A DNA stretch of 62,873 bases from contig JAKPQA010000254.1 in assembly GCA_029547025.1 (NCBI GenBank), positions 1 to 62,873 of the forward strand. Reading direction: 5' to 3'. Under the pieces are notes generated by a model. The model worked only from the letters and a program-made list of their open reading frames with translations. It did not search any database and had not been told where the DNA came from. The position numbers and the translations under genes were made by a program. Below are positions 5,072 to 30,100 of the stretch, one piece after another. This stretch comes from Armatimonadota bacterium (GTDB taxonomy: Bacteria > Armatimonadota > Zipacnadia > UBA1398 > JAKPQA01). Numbering within the stretch: the stretch's first letter is position 1; the number at the start of each line of letters is the position of its first letter.

Positions 5072-6010
5072 GTGGGACGCATTGCGGGGGACATGACGGA
5101 GCTAGTGGGGCACACGCCTTCGGTGCGCCTCAACCGGGTGACCGAGGGGTGCGTCGGCACGGTGGTGGGCAAGTGCGAGTTCATGAATCCGCTCTCGAGC
5201 GTGAAGGACCGCATTGGCCTGTCGATGATCGATGCGGCCGAAGGCGAAGGCCGGATCGGCCCGGGGTCGGTGATCATCGAGCCGACCAGTGGCAACACGG
5301 GGATCGCGCTGGCCTGGGTCGCGGCGGTTCGCGGCTATCGCTGCATCCTGACCATGCCCGACAGCATGAGCCTCGAGCGTCGTGCGCTGCTCAGGGCGCT
5401 CGGCGCCGAGCTGGAACTCACGCCCGGAGCGGAGGGCATGCGTGGGGCGATCGCCCGGGCTCAGGAGCTGGCCGCACAGATTCCGGGCTCGTTCATCCCG
5501 ATGCAGTTCGAGAACTCGGCGAACCCGGGGGTGCATCGCGCCACCACGGCCGAGGAGATCTGGGAGGACACGGAGGGCCAGGCGGACATCCTGGTGGCCG
5601 GTGTGGGCACCGGGGGTACGCTCACCGGTTGCGCCGAGCTGATCAAGGCGCGCCGGCCGGGTTTCCGCGCCATCGCGGTCGAGCCGCTGGCCTCGCCGGT
5701 GCTTTCCGGCGGGAAGCCGGGACCCCACAAGATCCAGGGCATCGGCGCCGGTTTCGTTCCGGCCGTTCTGCGGACGGATCTCGTTGATGAGATTATCACC
5801 GTTGCCAGCGATGACGCCATGGCCATGGCCCGAAGGCTAGCCAAGGAAGAGGGCATCCTGGCGGGCATATCGGCGGGGGCCAATGTCTTCGCCGCGGTCG
5901 GCGTCGCCCGGAGGCCGGAGAACGCCGGCAAGCTCATCGTGACGATTCTCTGCGACACGGGAGAGCGATACCTGAGTCAGGCGCCCTTCGCCGAGACGCC
6001 GCCTGGCTAA
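5072..6010 (+). CDS. cysK: Cysteine synthase (O-acetylserine sulfhydrylase), PLP-dependent
   Basis: A 312-residue fold-type II PLP enzyme that makes cysteine from O-acetylserine and sulfide. The PLP lysine is K45 in [11 protein letters not shown]; the substrate loop [13 protein letters not shown], the phosphate-binding [10 protein letters not shown] and the C-terminal GISAGAN are all present. Length is normal for CysK/CysM. The start is GTG at 5072, preceded by GAGAGGGG. The next gene starts 8 bp after the stop, so both are probably in one transcript. It could also be a CysM-type isoenzyme; the pathway is not in doubt. Confidence 0.9.
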
Positions 6011-6018
6011 CGAGGGGG

Positions 6019-6960
6019 ATGCGGGGGGCGCCCGGTGGCGGCCATTGCCCCCCGATTGCGTTGATCGATATCACGACCTATCTCGAGGAGCGGGGAGCCC
6101 GGGTGGACTCCTACCTCGACACGGTCCTCCCGGCGGCGTCCCACGCCCACGGTCGGCTGTACGAGGCAGTACGGTACTCGATCTTCGCCGGCGGCAAGCG
6201 GTTTCGTCCGGCGCTGTGCATCGCGAGTTGCGAGGCGTTCGGCGGCTTGACAGAGGCGGCTCTGCCCGCCGCCGCCGCCCTCGAACTGATCCATGTCTCC
6301 TCGCTGATCCATGACGATCTGCCGTGCATGGACGACTCCGACCTGCGGCGGGGCCGTCCGTCGTGCCATCGAGCTTTCGCCGAGTCGCTGGCCGTTCTCG
6401 CCGGCGACTGGCTGCTCTGTTTCCCGTTCGCGCTCGTGGCCGAGGCGGGCGAGAGTGCCGGCGTCGAGAGCGCGCGGACGCTGCGCCTGGTGCGCGAGCT
6501 GGCTGAGGCGGTGTGCCGTGCGGGCATCGTTGAGGGCCAGGCTGAGGACCTGGATGCCGAAGCGCGCCACATCAGTTTCGAGGCGCTGCGGGCGCTCCAC
6601 GCGCGCAAGACGGGTTCGCTGATCCGTGCGGCCGCTCGGTGTGGACTCATCGCGGCCGGCGTGCCTCTCGACGATGTCGTTCGGTTCGCCGCCTACGCCG
6701 AGCCTTTGGGGCTGGCGTTCCAGATCGCCGACGACATCCTCGACGTGGTGTCGGATGAGAGTACCCTCGGTAAGCCCGTCGGCGCCGACGACGCAAACCA
6801 AAAGAGCACATATGTGTCATGCCTGGGGCTCGAGGGCGCTCAGGAGATGGCGGCTCGTGTGGCGGTCGATGCCCATCGCGAGCTCGACGCCCTGCCCGAC
6901 TGGGTGGACACCCGGGTGCTGCGCGCGCTGGTCGACTTCGTGGTCGACCGCCGGAGCTAG
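6019..6960 (+). CDS. ispA: Polyprenyl (farnesyl/geranylgeranyl) diphosphate synthase
   Basis: A 313-residue trans-isoprenyl diphosphate synthase that condenses isopentenyl diphosphate onto allylic diphosphates. It shows GGKRFRPAL (about residues 58-66), the first Asp-rich motif HDDLPCMDDSDLRRGRP (about 98-114) and the second, QIADDILDVVSDE, near residue 236. The bulky residues before the first motif suggest a short (C15-C20) product, though this is inference. The N-terminus is uncertain: the ATG at 6019 abuts a G-rich tract, and a TTG at 6061 would give a more typical start. It follows cysK by 8 bp and precedes ahbAB by 19 bp. Confidence 0.88.
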   Translation: MRGAPGGGHCPPIALIDITTYLEERGARVDSYLDTVLPAASHAHGRLYEAVRYSIFAGGKRFRPALCIASCEAFGGLTEAALPAAAALELIHVSSLIHDDLPCMDDSDLRRGRPSCHRAFAESLAVLAGDWLLCFPFALVAEAGESAGVESARTLRLVRELAEAVCRAGIVEGQAEDLDAEARHISFEALRALHARKTGSLIRAAARCGLIAAGVPLDDVVRFAAYAEPLGLAFQIADDILDVVSDESTLGKPVGADDANQKSTYVSCLGLEGAQEMAARVAVDAHRELDALPDWVDTRVLRALVDFVVDRRS

Positions 6961-6979
6961 GCCGGGGAGGCGATGGGGC

Positions 6980-7957
6980 ATGGATGATCTGGACCGGGTC
7001 CTGCTGGACCGCATCCAGACCGGCTTTCCCATCTCCCGGCGCCCCTACGACGTGCTCGCCGACGAGCTCGGGCACACCGCAAGCGGCTGGCTCTCGCGGG
7101 TGCGCCGGCTTTCCGAGGAGGGCATCGTCCGCGGCGTCTCAGCGGTCTTCGAGCCCACCCGCATCGGGTACGTGACCTCGCTGGCCACGCTGGCCGTGCC
7201 GCCTGACCGCCTCGAGGCCGTGGCCGCGATGGTGAGTGAGTATCCGGAGGTCACCCACAACTACTCTCGCGACCACACGTACTCCCTCTGGTTCGCGCTG
7301 GTCGCTCACGGCCAGACGCGCCTGGACTCGGCACTCCGGGACATCGAGGCACGGGCCGCCTGCGGCCCGGTCCATGCTCTCCCCACGCTGCGTCGGTTCA
7401 AGATCCGCGTTGACTTCGACTTCGGCACGGGTGCTCGCGAGGCTCCGCGCCTCGCCGGAACGGACCCTGCAGAGCCTATCGACGTCGATCCGGCCCTCGT
7501 GCACCGGTTGTGTCAGCCATTGCCTCTGGTAGCGGAGCCCTACGACGCGCTCGCGGCTAGCCTGGGCCGCGATCCCGATGCCGTCATCGCCGAGGTCGTC
7601 CGGTACACCCGGGCGGGCGCGATCCGGCGCCTCGGTGCCCTCGTACGGCACCATCAGGCGGGTTTTGGCGCCAATGCCATGGTTGTGTTTCGGGTGCCCG
7701 AGGAGGCCATGGTTGCCGCCGGGGAGCGTCTCGCCGAGTTCGCGGCGGTCAGCCACTGCTATGAGCGGCCACCTTTGCCCAGGCTGCCCCACAATCTCTA
7801 CGCCATGGTCCACGCGCATCACGACGACGAGTGTCGGGCATTGGCGGCCCAGATGGCCCGCGCCATCGGCGTCCGGGACTACCTCGCGCTGTTCACGGTG
7901 ACCGAGTACAAAAAGGCGAGCCCGGTGTACTTTGCGGAGGCAGCCGGCAACCGGTGA
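6980..7957 (+). CDS. Fused siroheme decarboxylase AhbA-AhbB (two Lrp/AsnC-like halves)
   Basis: A 325-residue protein made of two homologous halves, each a winged-helix plus RAM-like domain of the Lrp/AsnC type. The N-terminal half (1-150) carries VTHNYSRDHTYSLWFAL, as in AhbA. The C-terminal half (about 165-325) carries VSHCYERPPLPRLPHNLYAM, as in AhbB/NirDL proteins. In characterised systems AhbA and AhbB are separate subunits that decarboxylate siroheme to didecarboxysiroheme on the alternative heme pathway; NirDLGH is the heme d1 homologue. Here they are one polypeptide. No ahbC/ahbD or nir gene is adjacent. The start is the ATG at 6980. Heme made this way could supply the octaheme cytochrome at 26771. 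Confidence 0.85.
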   Translation: MDDLDRVLLDRIQTGFPISRRPYDVLADELGHTASGWLSRVRRLSEEGIVRGVSAVFEPTRIGYVTSLATLAVPPDRLEAVAAMVSEYPEVTHNYSRDHTYSLWFALVAHGQTRLDSALRDIEARAACGPVHALPTLRRFKIRVDFDFGTGAREAPRLAGTDPAEPIDVDPALVHRLCQPLPLVAEPYDALAASLGRDPDAVIAEVVRYTRAGAIRRLGALVRHHQAGFGANAMVVFRVPEEAMVAAGERLAEFAAVSHCYERPPLPRLPHNLYAMVHAHHDDECRALAAQMARAIGVRDYLALFTVTEYKKASPVYFAEAAGNR

Positions 7958-25589: not shown

Positions 25590-26015
25590 ATGTCCAGCGC
25601 ATTGAGGATCTCGGAAGCGGCGTCCATCGGGCTGCATACCGTCCTACTGCTGGCCCAGGAGGGCCAGCAGTTCCTCTCGGCCAGGGACATGGCCCGGACG
25701 ATGGGCGTCTCCGAGGCGCACCTGTCGAAGGTGCTCCAGCGGCTCGTGCGAGCGGGCATCGCCGAGTCGGCACGCGGCCCCCACGGCGGTTTCCGCCTGG
25801 CCGCCGGTGCCGAGGCCCTGTCGCTACTGGCCGTCTATGAGGCCATCGATGGGCCGCTCCGGCCTCTGCCGTGCCTACTCGGGCGGCCCATGTGCGACGG
25901 CAAGAGCTGCATCCTCGGTGGCTTGCTGGCCAGCGTCAACGAGCAGATCCGCGACCAGTTGGCGTCAGTCCGACTGTCGCAGTTCCTAGCCCGGGCTTCG
26001 GGGGAGGCGCAATGA
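25590..26015 (+). CDS. Rrf2-family Fe-S transcriptional regulator
   Basis: 141 residues. The ATG at 25590 follows GGAG with eight bases spacing. The N-terminal winged helix reads MARTMGVSEAHLSKVLQRLV, then GIAESARGPHGGFRLA, typical of Rrf2/IscR/NsrR. Three cysteines lie in the pattern C-x6-C-x4-C (PCLLGRPMCDGKSC), suitable for an Fe-S cluster. Because it heads an operon for hydroxylamine/nitrogen-oxide enzymes, an NsrR-like NO or redox sensor is the best guess, though this is inferred from context. Its stop overlaps the next ATG (ATGA), so it is probably autoregulated with the operon. Confidence 0.88.
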   Translation: MSSALRISEAASIGLHTVLLLAQEGQQFLSARDMARTMGVSEAHLSKVLQRLVRAGIAESARGPHGGFRLAAGAEALSLLAVYEAIDGPLRPLPCLLGRPMCDGKSCILGGLLASVNEQIRDQLASVRLSQFLARASGEAQ

Positions 26016-26737
26016 AGAGCGTTCGCCAGATCGTCCACATCGACGAAGACAAGTGCAATGGCTGTGGCCTGTGCGTGCCGGCGTGCCACGAAGGCGCCAT
26101 CCACATCGTGGATGGTAAGGCGCGGCTCGCGAGCGACATCCTGTGTGACGGCCTCGGCGACTGCCTGGGTGAGTGCCCCCAGGGCGCGATCACCATTGAG
26201 GAGCGCGAGGCCGAAGCCTATGACGCGGATGCGGTGAAGGCCCGTCTGGCCGCCCACTCATCTCGCGCCACCGATGTGGCTCAGGGAGGTTGCCCTTCGG
26301 CGCGGGCATGGTCTCGCGAATCGGCTGCGTCGGCCGTGGCCGGCAGTTCGGAGGCTTCGGCCTCACAGTTGTTGAACTGGCCTGTTCAGCTCCACCTTGT
26401 TCCCCCCGCGGCACCGTACCTGCGGGGTGCCAGGCTCCTGATCTGTGCCGACTGTGTTCCTTTCGCCTGCGCCGACTTCCACCGGGATCTTCTCGCCGGT
26501 CATGTTGTGGTCACCGGATGCCCCAAGCTGGACGACGGGCAGCTCTACATCGACAAACTCGCCGTGCTCATCGCGCAGAACGATCTGGAGTCCATCGATA
26601 TCGCGTTCATGGAGGTGCCCTGCTGCCATGGGCTGGTTCACATCGTTCGCCACGCCGCCCTGCAGTCGGGCAAGGAAGTGCCTATTCAGTTGACGCGAGT
26701 CGGCATCCAGGGCGGACTCGATCACCCGGAGATCTAG
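26012..26737 (+). CDS. Ferredoxin-like 4Fe-4S protein with C-terminal Cys-rich domain
   Basis: 241 residues. The N-terminal ferredoxin domain has CNGCGLCVPAC and CDGLGDCLGEC cysteine clusters. After an Ala/Ser-rich linker comes a second domain with CADCVPFACADFHRDLL, VVTGCPKLDD and MEVPCCHGL, which could hold another Fe-S cluster or metal. Proteins of this architecture commonly sit beside hcp and are thought to deliver electrons to it; that function is inferred. It starts inside the rrf2 stop codon with GGGGAGG upstream, and the cytochrome gene follows after 33 bp. Confidence 0.82.
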   Translation: MKSVRQIVHIDEDKCNGCGLCVPACHEGAIHIVDGKARLASDILCDGLGDCLGECPQGAITIEEREAEAYDADAVKARLAAHSSRATDVAQGGCPSARAWSRESAASAVAGSSEASASQLLNWPVQLHLVPPAAPYLRGARLLICADCVPFACADFHRDLLAGHVVVTGCPKLDDGQLYIDKLAVLIAQNDLESIDIAFMEVPCCHGLVHIVRHAALQSGKEVPIQLTRVGIQGGLDHPEI

Positions 26738-26770
26738 GGTCGGGCTCCGGGACTGCGAACGGAGGCTCTG

Positions 26771-28366
26771 ATGCACCACGCTAGGTTCGCCACATGTCGC
26801 ATGGGATCAACGATCGTGCTCGCGCTGGCCGTTTCGACCACGGGCCCGTGGGCCCAGGAGGCCGTCGAACCGATCGTCAGCGACGCGACGGCCGTCTGCC
26901 TTGTGTGCCACGGACCGGGCGGCACTGGGCTGGCCGCGGGGGCGCCGGCCATCGCGCAGCAGTGGACGGGGAGCGCCCACGCCACCGTGGGAGTGGGTTG
27001 CGCCGAGTGCCACGTCGTGCCGAAGCCTGGCACCGGCAGGGACATCGGGAACCCACGCTACGTGGTCGATACCCAGTGGGACCGTGCCACGGGCCTGAAA
27101 TCGGTGGCACTGGTGGCGGACGACGGCAAGCCCCGGGAGCGACCGGACTTGTGGGCGCATCAGGGCGCCGAGGTTGTGGTCAACGTATCGCCGCGGACGT
27201 GCGCCACGTGTCATGAGGCCGAAGCGCGCGAGTTCCACGGCTCCCGGCATGCTTCGGCCGCGCAGTTCGTCGGCAGTATTGATAACTTTCTCGGCCGCTA
27301 TGCCGAGGGCCCGGCCGCGGCGATCAGCGGGTGCCAGCAGTGCCACGGCAGCGAGGTGCGTGTCTCCCGCGCCGCCGATGGTGAGTCCCCGCCGGAGTAT
27401 GCTGCCGACACGTGGCCCAACACGGGCATGGGGCGCGTGAACGCCGATGGTTCGTGGGGGTCGTGCACCGCCTGCCACTCACGCCATGCGTTCTCACCGG
27501 GTGTGGCGCGGAGGCCTGATAACTGCGGCCGGTGTCATCTGGGACCGGACCACCCTCAGGCCGAAGTCTATCGTGAGTCCAAGCACGGCATCGCCTTCCG
27601 CGCGACCGAGGCATCGATCGGAATCGACCGGCCCGGGCTGCAGTGGGTGTTGGGCAAGGACTACTCCCAAGCCCCTACGTGCTCCTCGTGCCACATGGGG
27701 CCTGTGGCGGCGCGGGGCCAGTCGCCCGGGCTCCCCATGACCCACAACGCCGGGGCGCGCATCGCGTGGACCCTCCGCCCTGAGGTGTCGGTGAAGCCCG
27801 GTGCCATCACTGAACCCGATGGCCGCGTTGTGCTGAGTGGGCCCGAACAGCGACGTGCCGACATGACGACCGCGTGCCAGGCGTGCCATGCACCGAGCTG
27901 GGCCAGCAACTTCTTCATCCAGCTCGACAACGCCGTAGACCTGTACAACGGGAAGTACGGCCGGCCGGCGAAGGCCATCTACGCCCACCTCAAGGCCCGA
28001 GGGGCCATTGACGCCGTGCCCATGAACGAGGCCGCGGACTACATCTACTTCGAGCTATGGCACCACGAGGGCCGCCGTGCGCGGCACGGGGCCGCCATGA
28101 TGGGCCCCGACTATGTGCAGTGGCACGGGTTCTATGAGCTGTCGAAGCGGTTCTATGCCGAGTTTCTGCCCCTGGCCCGCGAGCTCGGAGTGAATGCCGG
28201 GGCCGGCGAGGACATGGTGGGTTTCATCGACGCGACGCTGCGGGGCACCGAGGGCCAGGACTGGGAGCGCTACCACGCCTGGACTGAGGGCCTCTCACCC
28301 GAGCAGAGTCAGCGGCTTCTCGAACTCGAGCGGGAAGCCTACGGCAGCAGCGCGGGCACCCCATAG
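26771..28366 (+). CDS. Octaheme cytochrome c of the hydroxylamine oxidoreductase (HAO) family
   Basis: 531 residues with an N-terminal signal peptide and eight CxxCH heme sites, at about 43, 77, 144, 188, 232, 252, 304 and 369. The heme-free C-terminal region reads YAHLKARGAIDAVPMNEAAD then GPDYVQWHGFYELSKRF, the helical segment that in HAO contains the heme 4 pocket. Spacing and length match octaheme HAO-type enzymes. In bacteria that do not oxidise ammonia these are usually reductive (nitrite or hydroxylamine to ammonium), but direction cannot be decided by eye. It is periplasmic or extracytoplasmic. It sits between the ferredoxin gene and hcp. Confidence 0.9.
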   Translation: MHHARFATCRMGSTIVLALAVSTTGPWAQEAVEPIVSDATAVCLVCHGPGGTGLAAGAPAIAQQWTGSAHATVGVGCAECHVVPKPGTGRDIGNPRYVVDTQWDRATGLKSVALVADDGKPRERPDLWAHQGAEVVVNVSPRTCATCHEAEAREFHGSRHASAAQFVGSIDNFLGRYAEGPAAAISGCQQCHGSEVRVSRAADGESPPEYAADTWPNTGMGRVNADGSWGSCTACHSRHAFSPGVARRPDNCGRCHLGPDHPQAEVYRESKHGIAFRATEASIGIDRPGLQWVLGKDYSQAPTCSSCHMGPVAARGQSPGLPMTHNAGARIAWTLRPEVSVKPGAITEPDGRVVLSGPEQRRADMTTACQACHAPSWASNFFIQLDNAVDLYNGKYGRPAKAIYAHLKARGAIDAVPMNEAADYIYFELWHHEGRRARHGAAMMGPDYVQWHGFYELSKRFYAEFLPLARELGVNAGAGEDMVGFIDATLRGTEGQDWERYHAWTEGLSPEQSQRLLELEREAYGSSAGTP

Positions 28367-28450
28367 CGGCAGACACGGTGGCGTTGCGCCGGCAGCAGGG
28401 TACGGGCCCGGATCCGGGCTCGGCGACCAATGAACCAGGAGGCATCTGAC

Positions 28451-30100
28451 GTGAGCATGTTCTGCTACCAGTGCGAACAGACGGCCAAAGGCGCGGGCTG
28501 CACCGTTACGGGGGTCTGCGGCAAGGACCCCGTGACCGCGGCCATGCAAGACCTGCTGATCCACGTGACCAAGGGCATCGGGGCCTACGCTCATCGCGCC
28601 CGGGAGCTGGGCGCTGCTGACAATGCCATCGACACGTTCGTCACCGAGGCGCTCTTCACCACCGTCACCAATGTGAACTTTGATGCGGCGCGGATCCGGG
28701 GCCTGATTGCGACGGCCGTCTCGGTCCGCAACCAGGCCAGACGGCTGTATGAGGAGGCCTGTGCCAAGGCGGGCCAGCCCCCGGAGGCCCTGAGCGGACC
28801 CGCGACCTTCGTGCCCGCGGCTGACGAAGCCGGTCTCCTGGCGCAGGCTGTGGATGTTGGCATCGGGGCTCGCATCGAGGCCCAGGGCCCCGACCTGACC
28901 GGTCTCCAGGAGCTATTGACCTACGGGCTCAAGGGCACGGCGGCCTATACCGATCACGCGCAGATCCTGGGTAGGACCGACGAGAGTGTCTTCGCCTTCC
29001 TCCATGAGGCGCTGAGCTACCTGGCCGGTGCCGATCAGTCCGTCGACGGCTTGCTGGGCCTCTGCTTGAAATGCGGCGAGGTGAACCTCACGGCCATGGG
29101 GATCCTCAATGCGGCGCACATCGAGCGCTTCGGGAAGCCTCAGCCCACCCCCGTCCGAGTCGAACCAGTCCGCGGCAAGTGCATCCTCATCACGGGGCAT
29201 GATCTGCTGGACCTCGAGGCGCTCCTGAAGCAGACCGAGGGCAAGGGCATCAACGTCTACACGCACTCCGAGATGCTGCCGGCCCATGGTTACCCGGGGC
29301 TGAAGAAGTACCCACACCTTGTCGGCAACTACGGCAGCGCTTGGCAGAACCAGCAGAAGGAGTTCGCGGCCTTTCCCGGCGCCATCGTGTTCACGACGAA
29401 CTGCCTCCAGCGGCCCCTCGATAGCTACAAGGACCGTGTGTTCACGTGCGGGCTGGTCGGTTGGCCGGACGTGCCCCACATCGAGAACCGTGACTTCACA
29501 CCGGTCATCGAGGCCGCCCTGGCGGCGCCCGGCTTCACGGAGGATGGCGGCGATCAGACCATCCTGGTGGGCTTCGGGCACGACGCCGTGCTGGGCGTGG
29601 CTGACAGGGTCATTGACGCCGTCAAAGCCGGGGCCATCCGCCACTTCTTCCTGATCGGAGGATGTGACGGTGCCAAGCCGGGCCGCAACTACTACACCGA
29701 GCTGGCCCAGGCTGTTCCGGACGACTGCGTCATTCTGACGCTGGCCTGCGGCAAGTACCGTTTCAATAAGCTAGACTTCGGTGACATTGGCGGCATCCCG
29801 CGCCTGCTCGACATCGGTCAGTGCAATGACGCCTACTCGGCCATCCAGATCGCCGTGGCTCTGGCCGGGGCTTTCGACACCGACGTCAACAGCCTCCCGC
29901 TATCGCTGATCCTCTCGTGGTATGAGCAGAAGGCCGTCTGCATCCTGCTCACGCTGCTGCACCTTGGGATCAGGAACATCCGCATCGGCCCCAGCCTGCC
30001 GGCTTTCATCACCCCGGCAGCGCTGCAGATCCTGGTTGACAAGTTCAACCTGACGCCCATCAGCACGCCCGAGGAGGACCTGGCCGCGATCCTGGGCTGA
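28451..30100 (+). CDS. hcp: Hydroxylamine reductase / hybrid cluster protein, strict-anaerobe type
   Basis: 549 residues from the GTG at 28451, which has AGGAGG eight bases upstream (an ATG at 28430 lies before that site and is less likely). The N-terminal cysteines C5, C8, C17 and C23 follow C-x2-C-x8-C-x5-C, the pattern of Hcp with a 4Fe-4S proximal cluster seen in anaerobes. The hybrid-cluster ligands are visible in NLTAMGILNAAHIERFG, VFTTNCLQRP, FFLIGGCDGAKPGRNYY, TLACGKYRFNKLDFG and LSWYEQKAV. Hcp reduces hydroxylamine or NO in the cytoplasm. As the last gene of the Rrf2-controlled operon it completes a nitrogen-oxide stress or respiration set. Confidence 0.95.
   Translation: MSMFCYQCEQTAKGAGCTVTGVCGKDPVTAAMQDLLIHVTKGIGAYAHRARELGAADNAIDTFVTEALFTTVTNVNFDAARIRGLIATAVSVRNQARRLYEEACAKAGQPPEALSGPATFVPAADEAGLLAQAVDVGIGARIEAQGPDLTGLQELLTYGLKGTAAYTDHAQILGRTDESVFAFLHEALSYLAGADQSVDGLLGLCLKCGEVNLTAMGILNAAHIERFGKPQPTPVRVEPVRGKCILITGHDLLDLEALLKQTEGKGINVYTHSEMLPAHGYPGLKKYPHLVGNYGSAWQNQQKEFAAFPGAIVFTTNCLQRPLDSYKDRVFTCGLVGWPDVPHIENRDFTPVIEAALAAPGFTEDGGDQTILVGFGHDAVLGVADRVIDAVKAGAIRHFFLIGGCDGAKPGRNYYTELAQAVPDDCVILTLACGKYRFNKLDFGDIGGIPRLLDIGQCNDAYSAIQIAVALAGAFDTDVNSLPLSLILSWYEQKAVCILLTLLHLGIRNIRIGPSLPAFITPAALQILVDKFNLTPISTPEEDLAAILG

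Follow-up and report, generated by a model that had tools for sequence, protein, structure and literature searches.

Known siroheme decarboxylases

Siroheme decarboxylases act on an oxygen-independent route to heme and are characterised by a conserved motif, HxYxR. In the enzyme from D. desulfuricans, roles have been assigned to several residues of the AhbA and AhbB subunits. In AhbA, His115 is an iron ligand and Arg119 lies near the bound product, as does Lys152 of AhbB; Arg102 of AhbB is the proposed catalytic residue, the Arg102Ala enzyme being inactive (PMC4145669). The unfused AhbA and AhbB proteins form a heterodimer (PMC3942049, PMC4145669). The AhbAB protein of M. barkeri has been assayed in E. 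coli producing siroheme from a CysG plasmid, with HPLC and mass spectrometry used to look for 12,18-didecarboxysiroheme (PMC3942049).

The two subunits are also described as halves of a single polypeptide. According to the literature, ahbA and ahbB are fused in the majority of Euryarchaeota (PMC11237513) and represent one gene in all heme-making archaea with the exception of M. barkeri and other methanogens (PMC3942049), whilst two-domain proteins are described in haloarchaea (PMC3403918). The enzyme of Hydrogenobacter thermophilus is a single-chain barrel (PMC4835899), and Dehalobacter has a relative of the AhbA-AhbB fusion with relatives of AhbD and AhbC encoded at the next locus tags (PMC4751268). 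On these accounts the fused architecture is established, bacteria included.

The ahbAB gene and its surroundings

The locus described here lies in a stretch of 62,873 nucleotides, referred to as the window, which corresponds to contig C103 in the draft genome of an Armatimonadota bacterium (6.3 Mb, 369 contigs, 96.0% complete, 4.8% contaminated). A gene on its forward strand, termed ahbAB (Table 1), has a stop-free translation of 325 residues and very probably encodes a single-chain siroheme decarboxylase, AhbAB, belonging to the heme b route. Its activity, substrate, mechanism and use in heme synthesis are read from the families of the two halves, the retained active-site residues, the predicted fold, the likely pathway partners and the lack of a match to the searched genes of rival routes.

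The open frame extends upstream as far as a GTG at 6626. Family matches to the protein start from residue 5, as counted from the ATG at 6980, and a GGGGAGG sequence nine bases ahead of this ATG is, from its position and its letters, likely to be the ribosome-binding site. The protein contains exactly two HxYxR sequences, HNYSR within the motif VTHNYSRDH and HCYER within the motif VSHCYERPP, so that both characteristic halves are seen once each in a single frame, just as the original prediction had claimed. No RNA element scored above the gathering score within the window.

Table 1. Features of the ahbAB locus, with positions counted along the window
Feature	Position	Strand	Evidence
Cysteine synthase gene cysK, upstream of ahbAB	5072..6010	+	TIGR01139, 438.7 bits (cut-off 350.95)
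Farnesyl diphosphate synthase-like gene, ending 19 bases before ahbAB	6019..6960	+	NF045485, 301.9 bits (cut-off 275)
GGGGAGG, likely ribosome-binding site	6964..6970	+	Letters seen in the sequence; role inferred
ahbAB, putative fused siroheme decarboxylase, 325 aa	6980..7957	+	AhbA and AhbB models, NirDL match, tree of halves, predicted structure
N half, AhbA-type domain, residues 5-148, HNYSR at 93-97	6992..7423	+	NF040708 above cut-off; alignment to D. desulfuricans AhbA 115/117/119
Linker, residues 149-172, with very low prediction confidence at 154-162	7424..7495	+	Gap between the two model matches; pLDDT below 50 at 154-162
C half, AhbB-type domain, residues 173-314, HCYER at 259-263	7496..7921	+	NF040707 above cut-off; AhbB His98/Tyr100/Arg102/Lys152 aligned

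The genes for cysteine synthase, the farnesyl diphosphate synthase-like protein and AhbAB are tightly ordered along the forward strand (5072-7957). The farnesyl diphosphate synthase-like gene perhaps shares a transcript with ahbAB, and has no known role in the decarboxylase step. At the other loci of the ORF set no homologue of cysK or of the farnesyl diphosphate synthase gene was found near the decarboxylase when flanks of roughly 1.5-6 kb were compared at E 1e-10; loci L002-L012 and L037-L039, which came from other searches of the same genome, lie outside this set.

Further along the same strand (25871-30100) come three consecutive genes, for a ferredoxin-like protein, then an octaheme cytochrome of the c type, then the hybrid cluster protein Hcp. 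The cytochrome (26771-28366) has 8 CxxCH motifs, in keeping with the octaheme protein mentioned in the original prediction, and it matches the hydrazine dehydrogenase model weakly, at 53 bits and far below the cut-off. These genes possibly form a cluster dealing with nitrite, hydroxylamine or NO.

Identity of the two halves and the predicted active site

The N half scores 192.5 bits with the AhbA model NF040708 (cut-off 140) and the C half 216.9 bits with the AhbB model NF040707 (cut-off 125). The Pfam family AsnC_trans_reg2 matches the protein in two stretches with an E value of 2.7e-47, and together these scores show that the two-half AhbA/AhbB pattern is not due to chance. When the halves of 58 proteins, 116 in all, are placed in a quick maximum-likelihood tree, a branch with an SH-aLRT value of 100 separates the N halves and stand-alone AhbA from the C halves and stand-alone AhbB, and the A/B labels need one change on this tree. 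The N half of the window protein sits with AhbA and the C half with AhbB, on opposite sides of that branch, so that the two do not both group with a single subunit. The claim that AhbA and AhbB are fused in one polypeptide stands, with each half above its own cut-off. When compared with solved structures by phmmer, the best match is the fused NirDL of H. thermophilus (4ch7; residues 4-320, E 7e-49), followed by D. desulfuricans AhbA on the N half and AhbB on the C half.

An AlphaFold2 model of the protein, built from 13 aligned fused proteins, has a mean pLDDT of 90.1, the value dropping below 50 in part of the linker. It aligns with the NirDL structure 4ch7 at a Z score of 28.8 over 293 residues, with an rmsd of 3.5 and 31% identity. 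Among the Foldseek top 1000, the best structure other than NirDL is 4czd_B, an AhbB chain (Z 12.9), and Lrp-type proteins come next at about 11. The product of ahbAB is thereby predicted to have the siroheme decarboxylase fold.

The likeness to winged-helix and Lrp proteins, seen also in an E value of 3.5e-5 for the Pfam HTH_AsnC-type family, might be taken to mean that the protein is a duplicated Lrp/AsnC-type transcription regulator. The chance of this is negligible, as the siroheme decarboxylase models are far ahead and the HxYxR residues are retained in both halves, whilst the regulator models remain below their cut-offs (HTH_AsnC-type 23.9 against 27, AsnC_trans_reg 11.6 against 25 and LrpA 37 against 250).

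With a siroheme decarboxylase as the preferred reading, the residues of its active site can be compared directly with those of the D. desulfuricans enzyme. In the N half, H93, Y95 and R97 fall opposite AhbA-chain residues 115, 117 and 119; in the C half, H259, Y261, R263 and K312 correspond to His98, Tyr100, Arg102 and Lys152 of AhbB, on the assumption that the crystal chain is offset by 20 residues, a shift that fits all four. All 58 proteins compared carry HxYxR in each half. On this alignment active-site residues of D. desulfuricans AhbA/B, including the catalytic arginine of AhbB, are retained in the window protein. The two Lrp/AsnC-like halves would pack together to form a barrel that binds siroheme, and the enzyme would then strip the carboxyls from the acetate side chains at C12 and C18 to generate 12,18-didecarboxysiroheme.

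Heme pathway genes in the genome

If heme is made through siroheme, as the original prediction proposed with ahbC and ahbD to be sought elsewhere in the genome, the didecarboxylated intermediate would be passed to AhbC and AhbD, to give Fe-coproporphyrin III and then heme b. The heme b would in turn supply cytochromes of the c type, among them the octaheme protein of the window. The genome encodes an AhbC-like radical-SAM protein (TIGR04546, 612 bits, cut-off 650; next NirJ1, 568) and an AhbD-like radical-SAM protein (TIGR04545, 440 bits, cut-off 500; next TIGR04053 at 361.5 and NirJ2 at 298). AhbC and AhbD are thus the top-ranking models for these putative partners, with both scores somewhat below the curated cut-offs. 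The AhbD-like gene is on contig C120 and the AhbC-like gene on contig C16, and ahbAB shares a contig with neither.

Contig C16 carries resB, a ccsA-type gene, a siroheme-synthase-type gene and hemA, and divergently from these hemC, cobA-hemD and the AhbC-like gene. The siroheme-synthase-type gene is of the N-terminal type (TIGR01470, 175 bits, cut-off 62). This divergent cluster (L037, 7815-15022 on C16 of genome G000) brings together genes for c-type cytochrome assembly and tetrapyrrole genes.

Several genes searched for in the draft genome gave no match, including ferrochelatase (same search positive in 9 of 14 control genomes), the ChdC/chlorite dismutase family to which HemQ belongs (7 of 14) and heme-copper oxidase subunit 1 (8 of 14). 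The single HemN_C match is HemW by model, at 279 bits with a cut-off of 205, as compared with 127 bits for HemN with a cut-off of 325. The expected absence of hemN, hemH and hemQ was thereby borne out in this draft; such absences are not final, since the assembly is 96% complete and 4.8% contaminated.

The chemistry of the enzyme would be identical if it were a NirDL-type siroheme decarboxylase serving heme d1 synthesis for a cytochrome cd1 nitrite reductase. The closest solved relative is indeed the H. thermophilus NirDL, and the AhbC-like protein has the NirJ1 score given above. The Cytochrom_D1 domain is carried by NirS, NirF and NirN, and a search of the draft genome for this family (PF02239) gave no match at E 0.001, whereas the same search was positive in 2 of the 14 control genomes. 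A service to heme d1 was rejected on this basis. The radical-SAM partners moreover rank the AhbC and AhbD models first, and of 24 named relative loci taken from a scan of genome contigs, 19 have an AhbD-like gene within the stretch that was fetched, making the heme d1 alternative highly improbable. Two of the other five loci (L017 and L029) start less than 400 bases from a contig end; the remaining three (L024, L033 and L034) have no AhbD-like gene in the fetched stretch despite more than 5 kb upstream. Siroheme-dependent synthesis of heme b remains the best reading for this genome, and is supported by the AhbC-like and AhbD-like partners together with the lack of a match to the rival-route genes searched.

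Distribution and origin of the fusion

Within a phylum sample of 201 genomes, a decarboxylase match was found in 60. The match is in a single frame over nearly the full length in 39 of these, the window included (one internal stop was noted in four of them), and shortened but spanning the linker in a further two (G058 and G178). Two separate matches occur in 18 genomes, of which G043 has its pair at two contig ends, and one genome (G182) has a match to the AhbB half alone.

In the class to which the window belongs, 11 of the 46 genomes searched have a decarboxylase match. The window, the sole representative of its family (f1) in this class search, has the fused form, whereas the 10 other matching genomes have two separate matches, adjacent or overlapping where compared. 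At least two AhbD-model matches at E 1e-50 are found in all 11, the stronger being taken as AhbD-like and, on the pattern of the window's own genome, the weaker as AhbC-like; the AhbD-model cut-off itself is passed by none of the 46. The presumed AhbD-like match ends 17-53 bases ahead of the ahbA match in 8 of the 11; for G190, G199 and the window's genome the two are found on separate contigs. Among the 35 class genomes with no decarboxylase match, three (G187, G209 and G210) have one AhbD-model match and 32 have none. Ferrochelatase is matched in none of the 46, and many genomes of the class may be without heme synthesis or may use another route.

The prevalence of two genes in the class, the fragmented draft assembly and a linker that, at 14 residues by the measure applied, is the shortest in a set of 42 fused proteins (14-47) could all point to an assembly or sequencing artefact in which two adjacent genes have been joined. 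It is very unlikely that this explains the gene. The frame is open throughout the 24-residue linker, which contains no in-frame ATG, the one in-frame GTG being at residue 174 at the start of the AhbB match. Furthermore, full-length fusions are common elsewhere in the phylum, and the draft genome holds nothing better than an E 0.6 match to a second decarboxylase copy of the kind present in haloarchaea.

For a genuine fusion, the history was considered with a careful tree of 58 joined proteins. Six loci for which the AhbA half alone was recovered (L026-L028 and L030-L032), the second loci of genomes already included (L079-L088) and phylum matches without a returned locus were left out of the trees. 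The window protein, which has a long branch, falls within a set of 14 rows (support 93/90, not starred) made up of itself, the 10 split forms from its class and three fused rows that represent one family of another class. Fused and split forms require three changes on the best joined tree. In the AU test a common origin for every fused form is not rejected (p = 0.155); with the other-class family left out of the constrained group, p is 0.0557. The window grouped with its own class (11 rows) has a support of only 41/0.

A separate origin of the fusion in the window's gene is thus suggested, with a likelihood close to even. The fuller proposal, that fusion took place independently in the window's family within an otherwise split class, alongside the break-up of an ahbD-ahbA-ahbB block, falls slightly short of an even chance. 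If this were true, the single chain would take over from operon co-expression in keeping the halves at 1:1.

Comparison with known systems

The fusion had been put forward as implying an obligate 1:1 enzyme. It is real, but common rather than special, both in the phylum and in Euryarchaeota and Dehalobacter, and because fused versions of siroheme decarboxylase are already well known the find is an ordinary one. An obligate 1:1 arrangement is of little consequence, because the separate AhbA and AhbB proteins pair as a heterodimer in any case (PMC3942049, PMC4145669). The locus contributes a well-supported instance of heme synthesis through siroheme, in a lineage that has an octaheme cytochrome and whose class gave no ferrochelatase match. 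The gain is one of annotation and of some evolutionary detail on how ahbA and ahbB have fused and split; the remaining interest is small, and ideas on how siroheme decarboxylase works are unchanged by this gene.

The NirDL protein of H. thermophilus (4ch7, 4czc) is, like the window protein, a native fusion of an AhbA-like half followed by an AhbB-like half, with the fold in common over the 293 aligned residues and HxYxR in each half. The two differ in sequence, at 31% identity, and in setting, as the NirDL host pathway leads to heme d1 whereas cytochrome d1 was not found in the window's draft genome. The AhbA/AhbB enzyme of D. desulfuricans (4czd, 4un1) shares its families and its aligned active-site residues with the window protein and belongs to a heme b pathway (PMC4145669), but is a heterodimer encoded by two genes rather than one chain. 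The archaeal and Dehalobacter AhbAB proteins resemble that of the window in the fusion of ahbA and ahbB (PMC11237513, PMC3942049, PMC4751268). In Dehalobacter the relatives of AhbD and AhbC are found in neighbouring locus tags (PMC4751268), whereas in the window's genome their counterparts are located on other contigs.
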